Source: Candidatus Curtissbacteria bacterium RIFOXYA1_FULL_41_14
Lineage (GTDB): Bacteria > Patescibacteriota > Microgenomatia > Curtissbacterales > GWA2-41-24
DNA: 47,072 nucleotides
Direction: 5' to 3'
NCBI GenBank assembly: GCA_001775095.1
Contig: MFCA01000013.1
Span: 22,618-69,689 of the forward strand
Positions 3,683-33,690 of this stretch are shown here, one piece after another (position 1 is the stretch's first letter; every line of letters begins with the position of its first letter). A program made the position numbers and the translations under genes. Below the pieces are notes generated by a model. It was not told where the DNA came from. It saw nothing but the letters and a program-made list of their open reading frames with translations, and did no database searches.

Positions 3683-3740
3683 TATTATTCTTCGAACGAA
3701 GTGAGAAGTCTGATAGTTCTCGCTACGCTCGAACAATATC
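3683..3740. repeat. Intergenic palindromic repeat (TTCGAAC-AAGTGAGAAGT..GTTCTCGCTACGCTCGAAC)
   Basis: ATTATTCTTCGAACGAAGTGAGAAGTCTGATAGTTCTCGCTACGCTCGAACAATA; short form without inner palindrome. Confidence 0.85.
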
Positions 3741-7828: not shown

Positions 7829-8062
7829 TTTTAAATTTCTAATTTCTAAATCCTAATCAAATTTAAATGACCAAAATACAAAATTCAAAACGGGAGGATA
7901 GCTATATTGTTCGAGCGAAGGAGAGTACCGTACGGTACTCTCCGCAGCGAGAACTCAAACTTCTCACTTTGTTCGAAGAATAACAAGGTTTTGAGACTAT
8001 CATTTTTTTGAACATTTGATTTTTGAATTTTGAAATTGTTTAGAATTTAGAGTTTGATTAGA
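7829..8062 (+). repeat. Approximately 230-bp composite repeat, copy A
   Basis: Matches the reverse complement of 33434-33690, including ATACAAAATTCAAAAC.GGAGGATA.CTATATTGTTCGAGC and GCGAGAACTCAAACTTCTCACTTTGTTCGAA. Confidence 0.8.
7920..7943. repeat. 24-bp perfect palindrome nested in the outer repeat
   Basis: GGAGAGTACCGTACGGTACTCTCC. Confidence 0.95.
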
Positions 8063-8063
8063 A

Positions 8064-8777
8064 ATGGTTGATAAACATATTGGTAAATTAATAGTTTTTG
8101 AAGGTGCTGACGGTTCCGGTAAAACTGTTCAGGCAAAACTTCTTCTAAATTTTCTAAAAAATCCGCCAGCTGGCGGAAAAATCCCCTGCACTTATATTTC
8201 TTTTCCCAGATATGAAGATTCCTTATGGGGAAAAATGGTCAGGCGATATCTAGAGGGTGATTTTGGAGAGCTTAAAAATGTTGATCCGTATCTGGCCTCG
8301 ATGCTTTATGCAGGCGATAGATTTAGCGCATCGACTCAGGTTAGGGAATGGTTGGAGTTGGGGAAGCTGGTCATTTGTAATCGTTATGTCGGATCGAATT
8401 TGGCACACATGGCAGGGAAGATGAAGGATAAAGGATTAAGGATAAAGTTTACAAAGTGGCTGGAAAAGTTGGAATATCAGGAAAATAAAATTCCCAAAGA
8501 AGATTTAGTTATTTTTCTTCATGTGCCGGTTGAGATTTCAAGGAAGCTGATTGGTGACAGAAAACTTGATATTCATGAAGCGGATCTTGGTTATCTTGAG
8601 CGAGTTGTTGATGTCTACAATGATCTTGCCATGCACCGGAAAAATTGGGTTAAAGTTGATTGTGTCAAAGGCGGCAAAATTTTAAAACCTGAGGAAATCC
8701 ACAAGAAAGTGTTGGAGGTGATAGAGAAATATAGAATATTCTTCGAACGTAGTGAGAAGTTACCTCTAAAATATTAA
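8064..8777 (+). CDS. tmk: thymidylate kinase
   Basis: LIVFEGADGSGKTVQAKLL, DRFSAS, NRYVGSNLAH. The C-terminus FFERSEKLPLKY is encoded by a palindrome arm. Confidence 0.9.
   Translation: MVDKHIGKLIVFEGADGSGKTVQAKLLLNFLKNPPAGGKIPCTYISFPRYEDSLWGKMVRRYLEGDFGELKNVDPYLASMLYAGDRFSASTQVREWLELGKLVICNRYVGSNLAHMAGKMKDKGLRIKFTKWLEKLEYQENKIPKEDLVIFLHVPVEISRKLIGDRKLDIHEADLGYLERVVDVYNDLAMHRKNWVKVDCVKGGKILKPEEIHKKVLEVIEKYRIFFERSEKLPLKY
8162..8177. repeat. 16-bp perfect palindrome inside tmk
   Basis: TCCGCCAGCTGGCGGA. Confidence 0.9.
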
Positions 8778-9045
8778 TGAGATGGAAATGATATGTTTAT
8801 ATCATTGAATGTTTAGATGGTTTTTACTACACAGGGCTTACATGGAACATAGCGATACGACTGGAACAACATGCACTAGGAAAAGGAAGTAGGTTTACTG
8901 CAAAACATGGATTCAAAAGATTATGTTACGTAGAGGAATTTTCAGATCTGACCCAGGCCAGATTTAGAGAACATCAACTGAAGGATTTTAGCAGAGTTAA
9001 AAAAGAAGCCTTGTTTAAATAGTTCTCACTGCGTTCGAACAATAA
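8736..9045. mobile_element. Candidate palindrome-bracketed GIY-YIG cassette 1
   Basis: ATATTCTTCGAACGTAGTGAGAAGT (8736-8760) and, inverted, AGTTCTCACTGCGTTCGAACAATAA (9021-9045) enclose a GIY-YIG reading frame; arms agree at about 21/25 positions. Confidence 0.65.
8792..9022 (+). pseudogene. GIY-YIG nuclease domain fragment without an in-frame start codon
   Basis: Frame reads YVYIIECLDGFYYTGLTWNIAIRLEQHALGKGSRFTAKHGFKRLCYVEEFSDLTQARFREHQLKDFSRVKKEALFK*; TGA lies immediately upstream (8789-8791). Not in the ORF track. Confidence 0.8.
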
Positions 9046-9138
9046 TTATGATTACTCTTCGAGCGGAGCGAGAAGTCGAGAGTTGTTTCTCGATAAGTCT
9101 TTCGACCATGAGCTCAAGACCGAATTACTTGAACAATA

Positions 9139-10884
9139 ATGATTGATCAACTGCAATCCCACGAAAAATTTACTAAAGAAGAGGCTTATTATATTGAGCC
9201 GTTTTTTACCAACTTAGACAAAAATGTTTTTGCCGCGAGGTATTTGCCAAGCGAGCTTTTAGGGGCATTGGCTTCCCGCTACAGCCGTTCGGCAAAAGGA
9301 GTCAGAAGACTATTTTTTGACGAGTATATCAAACCGATTTTAGAGCCTGATCTTATAGAAGTTGGGACTCGAGAGATAAGAGAAGCCGGGAGGATGAGGA
9401 AAGAACTTCTAAGTTTTGTCGATTATCTGCACAAACATGGAGGTTGGGAAGCGGTGGTCGGCAGTAAGAGGGCACGTGATTTTTTCGCCAGATGGCTTGC
9501 TGCTTATGGTGATGATTCGATCGCCCAAATGGCCGGTGCCCACATTTTCTTTGAAAATATTTCCAACGTAGCTACCAAAATTTTAGAGGATTTCAGGATC
9601 GGTTTTGCGCCTCTTGAGAAATCGACGAGGTATGTTTTATTTGATCAGAAAGTCGGCGGTAGGTATTTGTTTTTTCTTGAGCCGGACTTGGTTAAATCAA
9701 AATTCAAAGGCGAATACATACGACTCATGAATATGCTTTTCAGACGATATACTGATTCAGTAGAACCTCTTTCAAAATACTTGCGGAAGATTTTCCCTCA
9801 GGAAAAAGATCAGTCTGAGCGGGCTTACCGGGAAACAATTAAGGCCAAAACCTGTGATGTTTTGCGACCCTATCTGCCTGCGGCGACACTGACCAATGTC
9901 GGATTTTTTGGGGTAGGCCAGGCTTTCGAATATGTTTTGACCAAGTGTTATGCACATCCTTTGGAAGAGATTAGGATGCTTTCCAAAGCCGCCCAGAAAG
10001 AGCTTGAAAAAGTCATTCCTTCTCTTGTCAATAGAGCTTCAAGTCCAAGAGGCAAGATTTATCAGAGATATGTTGCCAGTACTGAAAAGACTTTGGAAAA
10101 GCTGAGTCGAAAGTTTCTTTGTTCAACCACCCCTGGGGTGGAAGAAGCTTTGCACCCCAGGGGTGCGGTCATGAAACCAGGTGTCGACCTGGTCGAATAT
10201 GATCAAGACGCCGAAGACAGGATTGTCGCCAGTCTTCTGTATAAGTATGCCCAGGTTTCTTACAAACAGGTGAAGGAAGCTGTCAGTAAATTAACACCTC
10301 AGCAGAAATCCCAAATTATCCAAAAGGCGATTGAAGGCCGTCAGGTTAGACAGCATAAACTGGTTCGGGCTTGTGAGAATACTTATTATAAATTCGATAT
10401 CGTGGCTAATCTGGGAATTTATCGGGATATACACCGCCACCGAATACTTACACAGGAGAGGCAAAGGTTTACAACAGAGCTGGGATTTGATGTACCGCCG
10501 GATTTAATTAAGGCAAAATTGGATAAGCCGTACAGAGATGCAGCAGAAAGAATAGACAGATTTCATAAAAAGATTAGGAAGCAGTATCCAGATCAATCTC
10601 AGTACGTAGTAATGCTAGGTAACAGAATTCGCTGGTATCAATGGGAAAATTTGAGGGAGGTCTGCTGGGAAACGGAACTGCGGACCGGACCTCAAGGCCA
10701 TCCTGATTACCGCAAAATCGAGCAGGAAAAAGTTAAACTGGTCCAGTCCGTGCATCCGGCGCTGGCTATGGCCTTGAAATTTGTGGACTTTAAACAGTAT
10801 GATTTGGCCCGTAGAGAAAGCGAGAATAGGATTGATAGAAAAATGGCTAAGATTGTTGCAGGAAAGTTAGGAGGTGAAAGATAA
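9139..10884 (+). CDS. thyX: FAD-dependent thymidylate synthase, long (two ThyX-like halves)
   Basis: FAARYLPSELLGALASRYSRS, SIAQMAGAHIFFENISNVATKILE, and a second half with HRHRILTQERQRF, NRIRWYQWENLREVCWETELRTG. Confidence 0.8.
   Translation: MIDQLQSHEKFTKEEAYYIEPFFTNLDKNVFAARYLPSELLGALASRYSRSAKGVRRLFFDEYIKPILEPDLIEVGTREIREAGRMRKELLSFVDYLHKHGGWEAVVGSKRARDFFARWLAAYGDDSIAQMAGAHIFFENISNVATKILEDFRIGFAPLEKSTRYVLFDQKVGGRYLFFLEPDLVKSKFKGEYIRLMNMLFRRYTDSVEPLSKYLRKIFPQEKDQSERAYRETIKAKTCDVLRPYLPAATLTNVGFFGVGQAFEYVLTKCYAHPLEEIRMLSKAAQKELEKVIPSLVNRASSPRGKIYQRYVASTEKTLEKLSRKFLCSTTPGVEEALHPRGAVMKPGVDLVEYDQDAEDRIVASLLYKYAQVSYKQVKEAVSKLTPQQKSQIIQKAIEGRQVRQHKLVRACENTYYKFDIVANLGIYRDIHRHRILTQERQRFTTELGFDVPPDLIKAKLDKPYRDAAERIDRFHKKIRKQYPDQSQYVVMLGNRIRWYQWENLREVCWETELRTGPQGHPDYRKIEQEKVKLVQSVHPALAMALKFVDFKQYDLARRESENRIDRKMAKIVAGKLGGER
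10128..10165. repeat. In-frame CACCCCNGGGGTG pair in thyX
   Basis: CACCCCTGGGGTG (10128-10140) and reverse complement CACCCCAGGGGTG (10153-10165). Confidence 0.9.
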
Positions 10885-11173
10885 GTTTATGGCAGATTCG
10901 TCAAGTGGATATGGAAAAGAAAGACCCTCGGCTTCTAAGCCTCCATGGGTAACAAAAGCAGAGCAGGATGCAAAAGACAGAAGAACTGCTTCCAGATTAA
11001 CGGCTAGTGGATTAAGTTACGGCCAGATTCGTGAAAGAGTAGTGAATGGTCTTGGTGAAGATCTAGATCCAACTAGGTATCAACAAATTATGGTAGACGT
11101 ACTTGCGGGTAGAGGACGAAAAGCGCAAAAGAAGGCTAAGGGAGGGAAGAAAAGCAGGATTAGCCCGGTGTAG
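10874..11173 (+). CDS. hypothetical protein
   Basis: ORF following thyX with small overlap. Confidence 0.5.
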   Translation: MKDKFMADSSSGYGKERPSASKPPWVTKAEQDAKDRRTASRLTASGLSYGQIRERVVNGLGEDLDPTRYQQIMVDVLAGRGRKAQKKAKGGKKSRISPV

Positions 11174-11306
11174 ATTTTGGGATAATCTTGCTTTTTATCG
11201 CTAACCAATGTTATATTTCCCCTAATCACACACGCCCTGTGCAAACTCCTTCGGAGTTTGCAGTTGACAGTTTTAAGTTCATAGTTCACAGAAGCTGCAA
11301 ATTTCG

Positions 11307-11347
11307 GTTTTCCAGGGCGGAGGGATCAGGAAAACTACTTTCTGATC
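11307..11347 (+). promoter_or_regulatory. Candidate structured rpsB leader with two mutually exclusive hairpins
   Basis: GTTTTCC (11307-11313)/GGAAAAC (11329-11335) versus GATCAGGAA (11324-11332)/TTTCTGATC (11339-11347), just upstream of the AAAGGAG ribosome binding site. Confidence 0.45.
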
Positions 11348-11363
11348 GCAAAGGAGATACTTA

Positions 11364-12122
11364 ATGCAAATTCCATCAATGCAAGAACTTTTGGAAGCGG
11401 GTGTTCATTTCGGGCACCAGGTCAGGCGCTGGAATCCGAAAATGAAGCCTTACATTTTTACGGCCAGAGCCGGAGTTCATGTGATGGATCTGGCTCAAAC
11501 TGTTGAGAAACTCGAAGAAGCCTGCGAGTTTGTCGCTAAAATCGGCGAGAGTGGCGGCACGATTATTTTTCTGGCTTCAAAAAACCAGGCAAGAAGTATA
11601 ATTGCCGAAGAAGCCAAACGATCTGGCGCCAAATATATAACAGAAAGATGGATCGGCGGGCTTCTGACAAACTGGGAAGTTGCCGGAAAGAACATTAAGA
11701 AACTTGCCGATTTAAAAGTCAAAAAAGAGGAAGGCGAATTTAAAGACAGGACAAAAAAAGAAAACTTGTTGATCGATCGGGAAATCGCCAGACTGGAAAG
11801 ATTTTACGGAGGCTTGGCGGATCTTGAAAAATTGCCGGACGCTCTTTTTGTTGTTGATGTCAGGAGAGAAGAGAATGCCTGCCGGGAAGCAAGGAAGAAA
11901 GGGGTTCCGGTGGTGGCGGTTTGCGATACCAATGCGGATCTGTCACTGGTTGATTTTCCGATTCCGGGAAATGACGATGCTATCAAAGCGATCAAAATTA
12001 TGACAAGCGCGGTCGCTAGCGCTTATCTTTTAGGGAGAGAGAAATTCGAGAAGAAGAGCGCGAAGGAGAAGGTTGAGTTGGCGGGAGAGAATAAGTCAAA
12101 AGTGATAAGTGATGAGTCATAA
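11364..12122 (+). CDS. rpsB: 30S ribosomal protein S2
   Basis: MQELLEAGVHFGHQVRRWNPKMKPYIF; RWIGGLLTNW; GNDDAIKAI. Confidence 0.97.
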   Translation: MQIPSMQELLEAGVHFGHQVRRWNPKMKPYIFTARAGVHVMDLAQTVEKLEEACEFVAKIGESGGTIIFLASKNQARSIIAEEAKRSGAKYITERWIGGLLTNWEVAGKNIKKLADLKVKKEEGEFKDRTKKENLLIDREIARLERFYGGLADLEKLPDALFVVDVRREENACREARKKGVPVVAVCDTNADLSLVDFPIPGNDDAIKAIKIMTSAVASAYLLGREKFEKKSAKEKVELAGENKSKVISDES

Positions 12123-12206
12123 GTAATATTTATTGTTCGAGCTATTGCGAGAACTAACCTTTAACTTCTCGCTATCGCTTGAAGGATAAAGACAGTCATT
12201 ATTAGT

Positions 12207-12665
12207 ATGCAAGTCACTATTGACCAAATTAAGAAGCTTAGGGCCAAGACAAAAGCGGGAATCGCGGATTGCCGTCGTGCCTTGGAAGAATCGGCTGGTG
12301 ATTTAAAGAAGGCCGAAGAGTTGTTGAAAAGTTGGGGTATGGACAAGGCCGCCAAAAAGGCCGACAGAGCAGTTGGATCCGGACTTATCGAAACTTACAT
12401 GCATGCAGGCGGCCGGATCGGGGCAATGGTCGAGGTAGCCTGTGAGACGGATTTTGTGGCCAGGACTGATGAGTTTAAAAACCTAGCCCACGAAATTGCT
12501 ATGCAGATAACGGCGATGGATCCTACTACTGTTGAAGAATTATTAAAACAGGAGTATATTCGGGACTCGGCAAAAACTATCGATGAGTTGGTAAAGGAAA
12601 CAATTGCTAAAGTCGGGGAAAATATAGTTATCAAGCGCTTTATGAGGTTTGAGTTAGGTGGATAG
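12207..12665 (+). CDS. tsf: elongation factor Ts, short form
   Basis: IKKLRAKTKAGIADCRRALEES; YMHAGGRIGAMVEVACETDFVARTDEF. Confidence 0.95.
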   Translation: MQVTIDQIKKLRAKTKAGIADCRRALEESAGDLKKAEELLKSWGMDKAAKKADRAVGSGLIETYMHAGGRIGAMVEVACETDFVARTDEFKNLAHEIAMQITAMDPTTVEELLKQEYIRDSAKTIDELVKETIAKVGENIVIKRFMRFELGG

Positions 12666-13056
12666 AGAACCACTTGTTTACGATTTTGATTTATTGGTGG
12701 ATTCTTTAAAAACTGCTAGGTTGATTAGAGATTGGGTCAGTCAGTTGGAGATTTGTTTTCCGGTCCCGGTTGGATTTGTTAAGGTTCTTTATGAAGATCG
12801 TGTCTGGAATTCTATTAACTTGGAGTCGGGTACAGATATGATACCAGTTTACCTACCTGATGGTATTTACGAAGCATACCCGACAAAATGCCACGCAAAA
12901 ACAGACGATGAAAGGCGTGCTTTTGACCTAGCAGCTGAGGCGTTTTTAGTTATTCGACTCTTAGAAAGAGGAAGTAAGGTTCCTGACGAGTGGCTTAGTG
13001 ATGTAACGAACAGGTTTAGGTTAATGCTTGATGGTGAGAGTCCTGAATTAAATTAA
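12658..13056 (+). CDS. hypothetical protein
   Basis: ORF overlapping tsf by 8 bp. Confidence 0.5.
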   Translation: MDREPLVYDFDLLVDSLKTARLIRDWVSQLEICFPVPVGFVKVLYEDRVWNSINLESGTDMIPVYLPDGIYEAYPTKCHAKTDDERRAFDLAAEAFLVIRLLERGSKVPDEWLSDVTNRFRLMLDGESPELN

Positions 13057-13070
13057 GGTGCCTTAATGGT

Positions 13071-13445
13071 GTCATCCCGACCGAGATCGAAGATCGAGTG
13101 GAGGGATCTAACAACATAAGACTTGAGAAAATCATATTATGTCTATATTCTTAGAAATCGGTCAGGTAATTTTTATATCGGTGTGACCAGTAATTTAATC
13201 AAACGAGTTTGGGAACATAAGAATAAGCTAGCAAGAGGATTTACTCAAAAGTACAATATCGATATACTTATCTACTATGAAGTTTATGATGATCCACAAA
13301 CAGCAATTACAAGGGAGAAGCAATTGAAGAATTGGAGCAGAAAGAAGAAAATTGCTTTGATTACAAAAGTCAATCCGAAGTTTGAAGAGATTGTACTCTC
13401 CATATAGTTTGGTTGAGAAAGATTCCTCGACAAGCTCGGAATGAC
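13071..13445. mobile_element. Candidate palindrome-bracketed GIY-YIG cassette 2
   Basis: GTCATCCCGA..GGAGGGATCT (13071-13109) and inverted AGATTCCTCGACAAGCTCGGAATGAC (13420-13445) flank the GIY-YIG ORF. Confidence 0.6.
13123..13407 (+). CDS. GIY-YIG nuclease family protein
   Basis: YYVYILRNRSGNFYIGVTSNLIKRVWEHKNK; TTG start. Confidence 0.9.
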   Translation: MRKSYYVYILRNRSGNFYIGVTSNLIKRVWEHKNKLARGFTQKYNIDILIYYEVYDDPQTAITREKQLKNWSRKKKIALITKVNPKFEEIVLSI

Positions 13446-13475
13446 AAAAGCGGTAGGTATTAAACGAACTTAAGA

Positions 13476-14021
13476 ATGTTAGCTGAAGTTTCTAATAAGA
13501 TGAGAGATGCGATTTCGCATCTGAAAGTCGAACTTGCCCAGATTAGGACGGGGAGGGCATCTGGCACTTTGGTTTCTGATATTCAGGTTGATGCCTACAA
13601 TTCCAAAATGATGGTTAAGGAGCTTGCCCAAATTACGACTCCGGAGCCGACCGTAATTTTAATTTCTCCTTGGGATAAATCGATAATCACCAACATCGTT
13701 GGTGGAATTGCTAAGGCAGATATCGGCCTAAACTCGGTTGTCGACGGGGATATTATCCGTATTGCGATTCCGCCGCTGACTTCCGAGAGGCGCGATCAGT
13801 TTATCAAAAATATGCACCAGATTTTGGAGAAATACCGCGTGGAAATCAGGCAAATTCGACACGAATTTGTCGAAAAATTGCGTGAAGCGGAACAAACGGG
13901 AGAGATGAGCGAGGATGAGGAGAAACGCCAGAAGGAAGAAATTCAGAAGCTTCACGATGAGTTTATCGAGGCAATAGAAGTTGCTGGAAAAGCAAAGGAG
14001 GCCGAGTTAAGGCAGGTATGA
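13476..14021 (+). CDS. frr: ribosome recycling factor
   Basis: LAQIRTGRASGTLV; IRIAIPPLTSERRDQ. Confidence 0.95.
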   Translation: MLAEVSNKMRDAISHLKVELAQIRTGRASGTLVSDIQVDAYNSKMMVKELAQITTPEPTVILISPWDKSIITNIVGGIAKADIGLNSVVDGDIIRIAIPPLTSERRDQFIKNMHQILEKYRVEIRQIRHEFVEKLREAEQTGEMSEDEEKRQKEEIQKLHDEFIEAIEVAGKAKEAELRQV

Positions 14022-14117
14022 TAAAATTTCTAATTTCTAATTTCTAATATCTAAATAATTTTCTAATTAATAAATTTCTAAATTGTTTAGGTCAATTAGA
14101 GTAATTAGGTTAATTTT

Positions 14118-15227
14118 ATGGTTACAGTTCTAATATTCTTATTAATCCTTTCCGTCCTGATTCTTGTCCATGAATTTGGTCACTTCATCATGGCCAAACG
14201 GGCGGGTATTGGTGTCGAGGAATTCGGTTTTGGTCTGCCTCCGAGAGCTTGGGGTAAGAAAATTAAAGGGACGCTTTATAGTATCAACTGGTTGCCTTTT
14301 GGCGGATTTGTGCGTTTAGTCGGAGAGGATCCGACTGACAAGCGGAAAGACCAGAAAGACAGCTTTTGGGTGAAATCCATTTGGCAGCGGACTCTGGTTA
14401 TTATTGCGGGAGTTATTGCCAACCTACTTTTGGCGGTTATAATTTTCTATATTGTCCTTTTCGCGCTTGGCTTTAAAGTCAGTCTGCCTCTTTTTTTTGA
14501 GCACCAATTTAAGTTTGTCAATCAGACCAGGCAGGTATTAGTTGCGGAGATTAATTCTGATTCCGTTGCCCAAAAAGCAGGGATAAATATTGGAGACTCG
14601 ATACTGGCGATTGACAGTCAAGGAATCTCCTCGATTGATGATCTTCAAAAAATTATCCGTTCTTCAGAAGGGAAAAACCTTACTTTGGTTTTAGAGAACC
14701 CAGTTAATAACGAGACCAGAAAAGTTCAAGTGACACCTGTTTATAGTGATCAGTTACAAGCTCCCGCATTGGGAGTAAGTCTAGGAGAATTGGCTGTTTT
14801 GAATTATACGACTATCCCGCAAAAACTCTTCTCCGGTTTCATTCATAGCTACAACACAATTGTCTATTCAGGCAAGGTTTTTGGCGAGTTGATCAGTTAT
14901 GCCATCAGTGAACGGAATATCGCGCCGGTTTCTGAGGGAGTTTCCGGTCCTATCGGTATTGCTCAGATTACATCCCAGGCGGTTGCCTTGGGGCCAATTT
15001 CAGTGTTGCAACTCGTGGGTCTTCTTTCTTTAAATCTGGCTGTTATTAACATTTTGCCGATTCCGGCACTTGACGGCGGAAGGTTTCTTTTTATAGTGAT
15101 TGAAATTGTTACCAGGCGGAGAGTCTATCCGCAAGTTGAAAGATGGGCGCACACCATCGGCTTCGCACTACTTCTAGGTCTGATTTTGCTAATCACCTAC
15201 AATGATATTCTGAAACTATTTCGGTAA
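14118..15227 (+). CDS. rseP: site-2 protease RseP/M50 with PDZ domain
   Basis: LILVHEFGHFIMAKRAGI (HExxH) and ILPIPALDGGRFLF. Confidence 0.92.
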   Translation: MVTVLIFLLILSVLILVHEFGHFIMAKRAGIGVEEFGFGLPPRAWGKKIKGTLYSINWLPFGGFVRLVGEDPTDKRKDQKDSFWVKSIWQRTLVIIAGVIANLLLAVIIFYIVLFALGFKVSLPLFFEHQFKFVNQTRQVLVAEINSDSVAQKAGINIGDSILAIDSQGISSIDDLQKIIRSSEGKNLTLVLENPVNNETRKVQVTPVYSDQLQAPALGVSLGELAVLNYTTIPQKLFSGFIHSYNTIVYSGKVFGELISYAISERNIAPVSEGVSGPIGIAQITSQAVALGPISVLQLVGLLSLNLAVINILPIPALDGGRFLFIVIEIVTRRRVYPQVERWAHTIGFALLLGLILLITYNDILKLFR

Positions 15228-15236
15228 TACATTGTT

Positions 15237-15285
15237 GTCATTGCGAGGAGTCCTTCGACTTTGCTCAGGACGACGAAGCAATCTA
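15237..15285. repeat. 49-bp direct repeat copy 1
   Basis: GTCATTGCGAGGAGTCCTTCGACTTTGCTCAGGACGACGAAGCAATCTA, identical at 15688-15736. Confidence 0.95.
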
Positions 15286-15579
15286 CCTGATGATTTCTTC
15301 ATAAAGATCCTTGAACTGCGGATTTTGTGACTTTATCAATTTTAATTTTTTTGTCCTCGACCCTGCTTTTAATTGTTTTTCTCTTCTGATTGTTGTTTCC
15401 GGGTCATTGTAAATTTCATAATAGACTAGTTTGAGAATGTTGTATTTTGAAGTAAAACTTGAGACTAATTTGTTCTTATGTTCATATATTCTCCTGATTA
15501 AATTATTGGTGATTCCAATATATAGAACTGTATTGGTGTAATTTGTTGCAATATAGACATAAAATTGTTTGTGCACCAT
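15283..15579 (-). CDS. GIY-YIG nuclease family protein
   Basis: MVHKQFYVYIATNYTNTVLYIGITNNLIRRIYEHKNK. The upstream part of the 236-aa track ORF is repeat/T-box sequence. Confidence 0.88.
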   Translation of the reverse strand: MVHKQFYVYIATNYTNTVLYIGITNNLIRRIYEHKNKLVSSFTSKYNILKLVYYEIYNDPETTIRREKQLKAGSRTKKLKLIKSQNPQFKDLYEEIIR

Positions 15580-15687
15580 AATTAAATGATAAGATTGCTG
15601 CACTTCGTTCGCAATGACACAGTGAAGAATTTTGAGGTTGGTATTGCTCACCGTCATTGCGGAGAGGGAGTCCCAGCGTAACTCATC

Positions 15688-15736
15688 GTCATTGCGAGGA
15701 GTCCTTCGACTTTGCTCAGGACGACGAAGCAATCTA
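15688..15736. repeat. 49-bp direct repeat copy 2
   Basis: Identical to 15237-15285. Confidence 0.95.
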
Positions 15737-15759: not shown

Positions 15760-16035
15760 TTGTGTTACAAAATTAGCCGCGTTATAATAGTTTCGAAACT
15801 GTGAAGGAGTATCCCGCTCCGGAGCTGACAGGGATAAAAACCTAGTCCGTTGGCAACGTAAACGCCGCAAATGAGGTCGATGTCGAAACAAGTAAGCACC
15901 TGCTTCGCCTCGCGCTAGAGAGATTTTAGTGCTCGCTCGCAGAAGCTTGCCTTCGCCTTCGGCGAACGTAGGGTGGTACCACGAAGTTTGCACCTTCGTC
16001 CTTACACTAAGGTGTAAGAGAGGAGGTGTTTTTTA
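15760..16035 (+). promoter_or_regulatory. Promoter plus T-box-like riboswitch leader upstream of the tRNA-binding protein and proS
   Basis: TTGTGT (15760-15765), 17-bp spacer, TATAAT (15783-15788); GAAGGAGTA near the 5' end; AGGGTGGTACCACG (15970-15983) with ACGAAG..CTTCGT antiterminator stem and GTCCTT. Confidence 0.8.
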
Positions 16036-31532: not shown

Positions 31533-31624
31533 AAACCTTGTTATTCTTCGAACGAAGTGAGAAGTTTGATAGTTCTTGCTACGGAGAGTATCAGACGGTA
31601 CTCTCCTACGCTCGAACGATATAG
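31533..31624. repeat. Outer palindromic repeat with nested 24-bp GGAGAGTATCAGACGGTACTCTCC (31583-31606)
   Basis: AAACCTTGTTATTCTTCGAACGAAGTGAGAAGT..CTTGCTAC[24 bp]TACGCTCGAACGATATAGG; inverted relative to 7903-7990. Confidence 0.88.
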
Positions 31625-33433: not shown

Positions 33434-33690
33434 ATTTTCTAATTGGCTCCAATTACAAATAAAATCCTAAACTCTAAATTCTAAACTCTAAACAATTTCA
33501 AAATTCAAATATTCAAATGATCAAGAAATGATAGTCTATTGGAAACCTTATCCTTCGAACAAAGTGAGAAGTTTGAGTTCTCGCCCTGAGTTTCGACGAA
33601 GGGCTCGAACAATATAGTTATCCTCCTGTTTTGAATTTTGTATTTTACCTTATCTGAATTTGTTTAGGATTTAGGATTTAGAAATTAGAA
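33434..33690 (-). repeat. Approximately 230-bp composite repeat, copy B, with different inner palindrome
   Basis: Reverse complement matches 7829-8062; inner CCCTGAGTTTCGACGAAGGG at 33584-33603 replaces GGAGAGTACC.. Confidence 0.8.

Follow-up and report, generated by a model that had tools for sequence, protein, structure and literature searches.

A 47,072-nucleotide stretch of the genome of Candidatus Curtissbacteria bacterium RIFOXYA1_FULL_41_14 (hereafter the window; contig MFCA01000013.1, positions 22,618 to 69,689) carries three cassettes in which an open reading frame (ORF) of the GIY-YIG nuclease type lies between inverted palindromic arms. Cassette 1 has a left arm of a repeat that we call family 1 (8737-8762, forward strand), which recurs in genome G002 (loci L106 and L252) as well as in solo copies, followed by a pseudogene-like GIY-YIG ORF on the same strand (8777-9022) with an in-frame TGA at codon 5, and by an inverted right arm (9021-9045, reverse strand). 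Given this stop codon, cassette 1 is probably inactive in the source genome; its orthologue in G002 occupies the same site, with the same two neighbour genes and the same arms, and has an intact frame. Cassette 2 comprises a left repetitive extragenic palindrome (REP) of the CGTC class (TGTCATCCCG..GGGATCT; 13071-13109, forward strand), an intact forward-strand ORF of 94 amino acids with a TTG start and a PF01541 match (13123-13407), and an inverted right CGTC-class REP (13420-13445, reverse strand). In cassette 3, a CGTC-class REP forms the low-coordinate arm (15237-15284, forward strand), the intact ORF of 97 amino acids with a GTG start lies on the reverse strand (15283-15576), its stop codon overlapping the flanking REP, and a second, inverted CGTC-class REP follows (15592-15618, reverse strand); an extra CGTC-class REP beside it (15688-15735, forward strand) is an exact copy of 15237-15284. 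Cassettes 2 and 3 measure ~375 bp each. All three GIY-YIG units of the window (3/3) are thus enclosed by inverted palindromic arms, and both the coordinates and the arm sequences reported in a first-pass annotation of this DNA were confirmed.

The same annotation had assigned each pair of arms to a different family, which we rejected, since there are two families only: cassettes 2 and 3 both have CGTC-class arms, with a CGTC/TGTC tag and the pattern GTC + AT..stem..AT + CT, and their proteins belong to one clade. Cassette 1 combines a separate repeat family with a separate GIY-YIG clade, and this pairing is preserved in two genera. The source genome contains 17 GIY-YIG matches, one of which is UvrC; CGTC-class arms flank four of its GIY-YIG genes and family-1 arms one, and eight lie at tRNA genes. 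Two of these own-genome loci outside the window (L012 and L013) have flanks of the same kind as cassettes 2 and 3, and the four proteins form one clade, which we call subfamily A (97% support in the Shimodaira-Hasegawa-like approximate likelihood ratio test, SH-aLRT).

Both repeat families also occur without a gene. On own-genome stretches totalling 447 kb we counted 57 CGTC hairpins, or ~0.13 per kb, and all opposed pairs less than 60 bp apart were arranged tail to tail (13/13) with a spacer of 0-14 bp, none being head to head. As in REPINs (REP doublets forming hairpins), two inverted REPs make one long hairpin unit. Since solo copies include the same inverted arms with a short spacer, the cassette is a dimer of this kind whose loop holds a gene, as the first-pass annotation had supposed. 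Folded as DNA, four dimers gave z-scores of -4.9, -3.9, -4.4 and -1.6; three of the four, as well as one rhizobial REP, folded better than shuffled sequences. Family 1 is represented in the window by a solo element with both arms, a 6-bp loop and no ORF (3685-3738; DNA folding z -2.98), by one with an arm split by another palindrome (7904-7982), by one with an interrupted right arm (31541-31600), and by two diverged elements (33549-33614 and 12130-12186). The interrupting palindrome in the copies at 7904-7982 and 31541-31600 is of the GGAGAGTACCGTACGGTACTCTCC type, which suggests that palindromes of a third family became nested in family-1 copies by insertion.

Through the clade alignment (A1), 80 subfamily A loci were retrieved from a species-level genome collection; they span Patescibacteria, Alpha-, Beta- and Gammaproteobacteria, Nitrospirae, Cyanobacteria, Planctomycetes, Chloroflexi and Omnitrophota, among others. 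A strict motif required GTC + ATnnn, followed by its complement within 90 bp and then by C and C/T; with it, the 150-bp flanks contained 5.6 CGTC hairpins per kb, compared with 0.19 per kb elsewhere. A forward hairpin was found upstream in 61% and a reverse hairpin downstream in 61%, compared with 20% and 27% for the opposite sense. An outward-pointing bracket on both sides, the arrangement of inverted ends around a gene known from insertion sequences, enclosed 35 of 79 subfamily A genes and none of the 535 other genes in these loci (Fisher p 2e-35). Moreover, the stem 5-mer was identical left and right in 71% of the two-arm loci, against 26% after permutation (maximum 49%). Thus, inverted arms were enriched at other GIY-YIG copies, as the first-pass annotation required, and its reservation that repeats might be dense enough for brackets to arise by chance was not borne out at the own-genome density. 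Among annotated copies, those of Rhizobium CIAT894 and Sinorhizobium meliloti have clean inverted REPs whose stems differ, a Novosphingobium copy has a CGTC-tagged inverted pair with a GC stem, and the Neisseria gonorrhoeae copy adjoins a dRS3-type CGTC repeat.

Comparison with relatives revealed empty sites. Cassettes 2 and 3, at the frr and rseP sites, were missing from the syntenic sites of the examined same-family genomes, gene and arms alike, and cassette 1, which only G002 shares, was missing in six relatives that have the neighbouring genes. Azospirillum lipoferum 4B has the gene between sufB and sufC, flanked on each side by REP pairs; in four congeners whose flanks are 91-97% identical, this site is free of both gene and REPs. 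The Planktothrix agardhii gene is part of a REP array adjacent to drmA, and the REP array of another strain is without the gene; for the Rhizobium CIAT894 copy, the search for an empty site yielded no usable junction. The gene is therefore absent at homologous sites in relatives, as is characteristic of homing endonucleases. The first-pass annotation had suggested looking in sister strains for empty sites with an intact palindrome lacking the ORF; the empty sites were there, with the arms gone too at frr, rseP and sufB-sufC. The Planktothrix locus (L267, plasmid p1) places the subfamily A gene and its REP array between a methylase/restriction gene and drmA, in a DISARM defence locus.

The number of repeats in a genome followed the presence of the gene. 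Among 137 genomes of the class, those with subfamily A had a median of 28.5 REP matches (N = 34) and those without had 2 (N = 103; p 2e-11, uncorrected for phylogeny), while a reversed-pattern control gave counts near zero. Y1 transposases were present in 96 of the 137 genomes and failed to predict REP number where subfamily A was absent (p 0.35), which leaves a Y1 or RAYT (REP-associated tyrosine transposase) driver of CGTC REPs unsupported.

The proteins belong to the GIY-YIG superfamily, as indicated by the PF01541 match and the conserved Y, Y, G, R, H, E and N residues. All nine members tested matched PF01541 and none matched Y1 (9/9 and 0/9), and the ORFs are mostly intact. The RAYT/REPtron definition, a Y1/HUH transposase between REPs, does not apply here, the gene being GIY-YIG. 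The predicted structure was a confident GIY-YIG-like fold (predicted local distance difference test score, pLDDT, 92.5) with weak matches to UPF0213, Slx1 and UvrC. The small UPF0213 proteins (PDB 1zg2, 1ywl) are the nearest solved structures by sequence and fold, with only distantly similar sequences, and no link between UPF0213 and repeats was found in the papers searched. A group I intron endonuclease was considered and rejected, with no Rfam match in the window and a TIGR01453 score far below cut-off.

A wider survey of 88 small GIY-YIG loci from the source genome and its relatives showed inverted flank matches scoring at least 11 in 20.5% of loci, compared with 1.9% of mismatched pairs, and placed 51 of the 88 within 250 bp of a tRNA or transfer-messenger RNA (tmRNA) gene, all co-oriented with it (51/51). 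These included eight own-genome loci (L001, L002, L003, L005, L008, L010, L011 and L015) and, in relatives, L073, L083, L098 and L101; L083 and L101 show two successive insertions at a single tRNA locus. A piece of the tRNA 5' or 3' end was repeated on the far side (score of at least 12) in 45% of cases, against 2.7% of controls. On the tree, which is poorly resolved, target labels changed 28 times, compared with 46 after shuffling (minimum 42), and tRNA targets taken alone changed 26 times, compared with 37. Co-orientation together with duplication of the tRNA end is the footprint that would be expected of a site-specific, target-restoring, homing-like insertion. At L005 and L008, the GIY-YIG frame continues into the adjacent tRNA gene (GSSNGRTTDFGSVYLGSNPSLAA, GYSSTGRAIAS), so that the ORF end and the tRNA overlap.

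By a modest degree, we lean towards the interpretation that cassettes 2 and 3 are small mobile REPIN-like dimers with a minimal GIY-YIG nuclease in the loop, which spreads both its own unit and the gene-less pairs. The nuclease would recognise the hairpins that flank its gene, probably in single-stranded or extruded form, and would nick at them, after which repair or replication would copy the arm-bounded, gene-carrying unit; gene-less hairpin dimers might be served in trans. Cassette 1 would share this design but draw on a different repeat family and a different GIY-YIG clade. Several observations weigh against this interpretation. The strict bracket was missing in 44 of the 79 genes, which we attribute to decay or to too strict a motif; of the REPs sampled over 447 kb, about half lay outside close pairs; and single REPs of the window, folded as DNA, were no more stable than shuffled sequences. 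Twelve genomes of the class had at least 20 REPs yet no subfamily A gene and four had the gene yet fewer than 6 REPs, in addition to the lack of phylogenetic correction mentioned above. A target-site duplication was not definable for the REP cassettes, the empty sites in Azospirillum and at frr and rseP being too diverged. Finally, the nuclease has no obvious DNA-joining activity, and host repair or replication must therefore finish any insertion. The repeat-mobilising nuclease of the first-pass annotation is consistent with the genome-level co-occurrence of REPs and subfamily A; mobilisation itself, in cis and in trans, is what we infer, together with hairpin recognition and cleavage.

The main rival is homing into REPINs, in which a free-standing nuclease would cut gene-less REPINs spread by other means and repair would copy the gene in; it differs from the favoured reading on whether REPIN movement needs the nuclease. 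Consistently with homing, GIY-YIG is a homing-endonuclease fold with a precedent at tRNA genes in T4 SegB (PMC2988022), the sister genes sit in non-mobile structured targets (tRNA and tmRNA) with uniform co-orientation (51/51) and far-side duplication of the tRNA end, and the Planktothrix gene lies inside a REP array of a kind that another strain has without it. However, REP number tracks gene presence, contrary to what a mere passenger would produce, and the empty alleles at frr, rseP and sufB-sufC are also without REPs; we regard homing into pre-existing REPINs as rather unlikely. A domesticated function seems distinctly improbable. Here the nuclease would regulate DNA uptake or recombination by cutting its repeats in single-stranded DNA, and the REPs on either side would be no more than dense target sites. 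The N. gonorrhoeae copy beside dRS3-type CGTC repeats, the conserved active site and the mostly intact ORFs would suit such a role, but it leaves unexplained the preference for outward-pointing arms around the gene, the empty sites and the several copies per genome.

We give very little credence to the view that another enzyme, a Y1/RAYT transposase, moved the REPs, with the GIY-YIG genes trapped between two of them as passengers. Y1 transposases are indeed common in the class (96/137) and one is encoded in the window, but their presence had no predictive value for REP number where subfamily A is absent (p 0.35), a previous survey found no transposase adjoining CGTC REPs (PMC3733652), and neither the pairing of clade with repeat nor the spread over many phyla is expected of passengers. 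Chance bracketing in repeat-dense intergenic DNA could appeal to the frequency of REPs in the source genome (~57 in 447 kb); the brackets at 35/79 genes against 0/535 control genes and the excess of inverted flank matches (20.5% against 1.9% of mismatched pairs) have already refuted it, and its remaining probability is negligible.

The arms fall within a known class of repeats. CGTC-tagged REPs were defined in a 2013 survey by a tag that is CGTC and often TGTC or CCTC, a stem starting with AT pairs and short tails; they include Neisseria dRS3 and Rickettsia RPE-4/6, were known in five phyla and apparently lacked a dedicated transposase (PMC3733652). The repeats described here share the (C/T)GTC tag, the AT first stem pairs, the short CC/CT tail, the high copy number and the inverted dimers; they differ in being accompanied by a GIY-YIG gene, in their occurrence in many more phyla than five, including Patescibacteria, and, for several copies of the window, in longer or imperfect loops. 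The cassettes resemble the RAYT/REPIN system in combining a REP-flanked gene with many gene-less inverted REP pairs (PMC3116915, PMC3733652), and the cassette relates to the gene-less dimer much as a RAYT gene does to a REPIN (PMC3116915), but the gene is GIY-YIG (PF01541) rather than HUH/Y1 and the repeats are of the CGTC rather than the GTAG class. Phage T4 SegB, which is free-standing between tRNA genes (PMC2988022), shares the stand-alone GIY-YIG gene, its absence in relatives and, with the tRNA-linked sisters, a tRNA home, and is the nearest documented precedent for the latter. Unlike SegB, the proteins studied here have ~95 amino acids and a short C-terminal helix only, with no separate DNA-binding domain recognised, and cassettes 1-3 are chromosomal and embedded in hairpin repeats. 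The first-pass annotation had been unable to match this architecture to a described system. The repeat class proved to be known (PMC3733652), and no relevant open paper was found on GIY-YIG proteins with REPs, REPINs, CGTC repeats, dRS3 or tRNA insertion in candidate phyla, most subscription papers lying outside the search.

Taken together, these data suggest GIY-YIG nucleases as the best candidate mobiliser of CGTC REPs, which makes the spread of these repeats amenable to a simple cleavage assay. We consider it an even call whether they form a second independent nuclease-REPIN system across bacteria, with GIY-YIG proteins as the missing mobilisers of CGTC REPs, and whether tRNA and tmRNA genes are homing targets of the same radiation, each clade choosing its own target, perhaps on the basis of hairpin-forming DNA. 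If so, REPIN-like selfish systems would have arisen at least twice, with unrelated nucleases, and a role would be found for a large, mostly unexplained set of GIY-YIG proteins of ~95 amino acids, for several of which the annotation says no more than 'GIY-YIG nuclease family protein'. Ssn, a small meningococcal GIY-YIG enzyme specific for single-stranded DNA, reportedly cuts a repeated sequence of the genome and affects transformation; if Ssn belonged to subfamily A and had dRS3 as its target, part of the biochemistry would already be known and would support the proposed mechanism.

Further features were observed beside these main subjects. A T-box-leader-like sequence (AGGGTGGTACCACG, ~15785-16030), with no Rfam match at gathering score, precedes an ORF of 110 amino acids resembling a tRNA-binding domain. 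A Y1 (RAYT-like) transposase gene lies at 1184-1810, flanked on either side by a different repeat of its own (..GAGACCCTTTAAGGGTTGTTGTAAT..). Finally, further inverted repeats surround the GIY-YIG genes of L004 and L097 (CCCCGTTAGAGACT / AGTCTCTAACGGGG and ACCCTGTTAAATAA / TTATTTAACAGGGT, respectively), and these loci are possibly more nuclease-repeat pairs.

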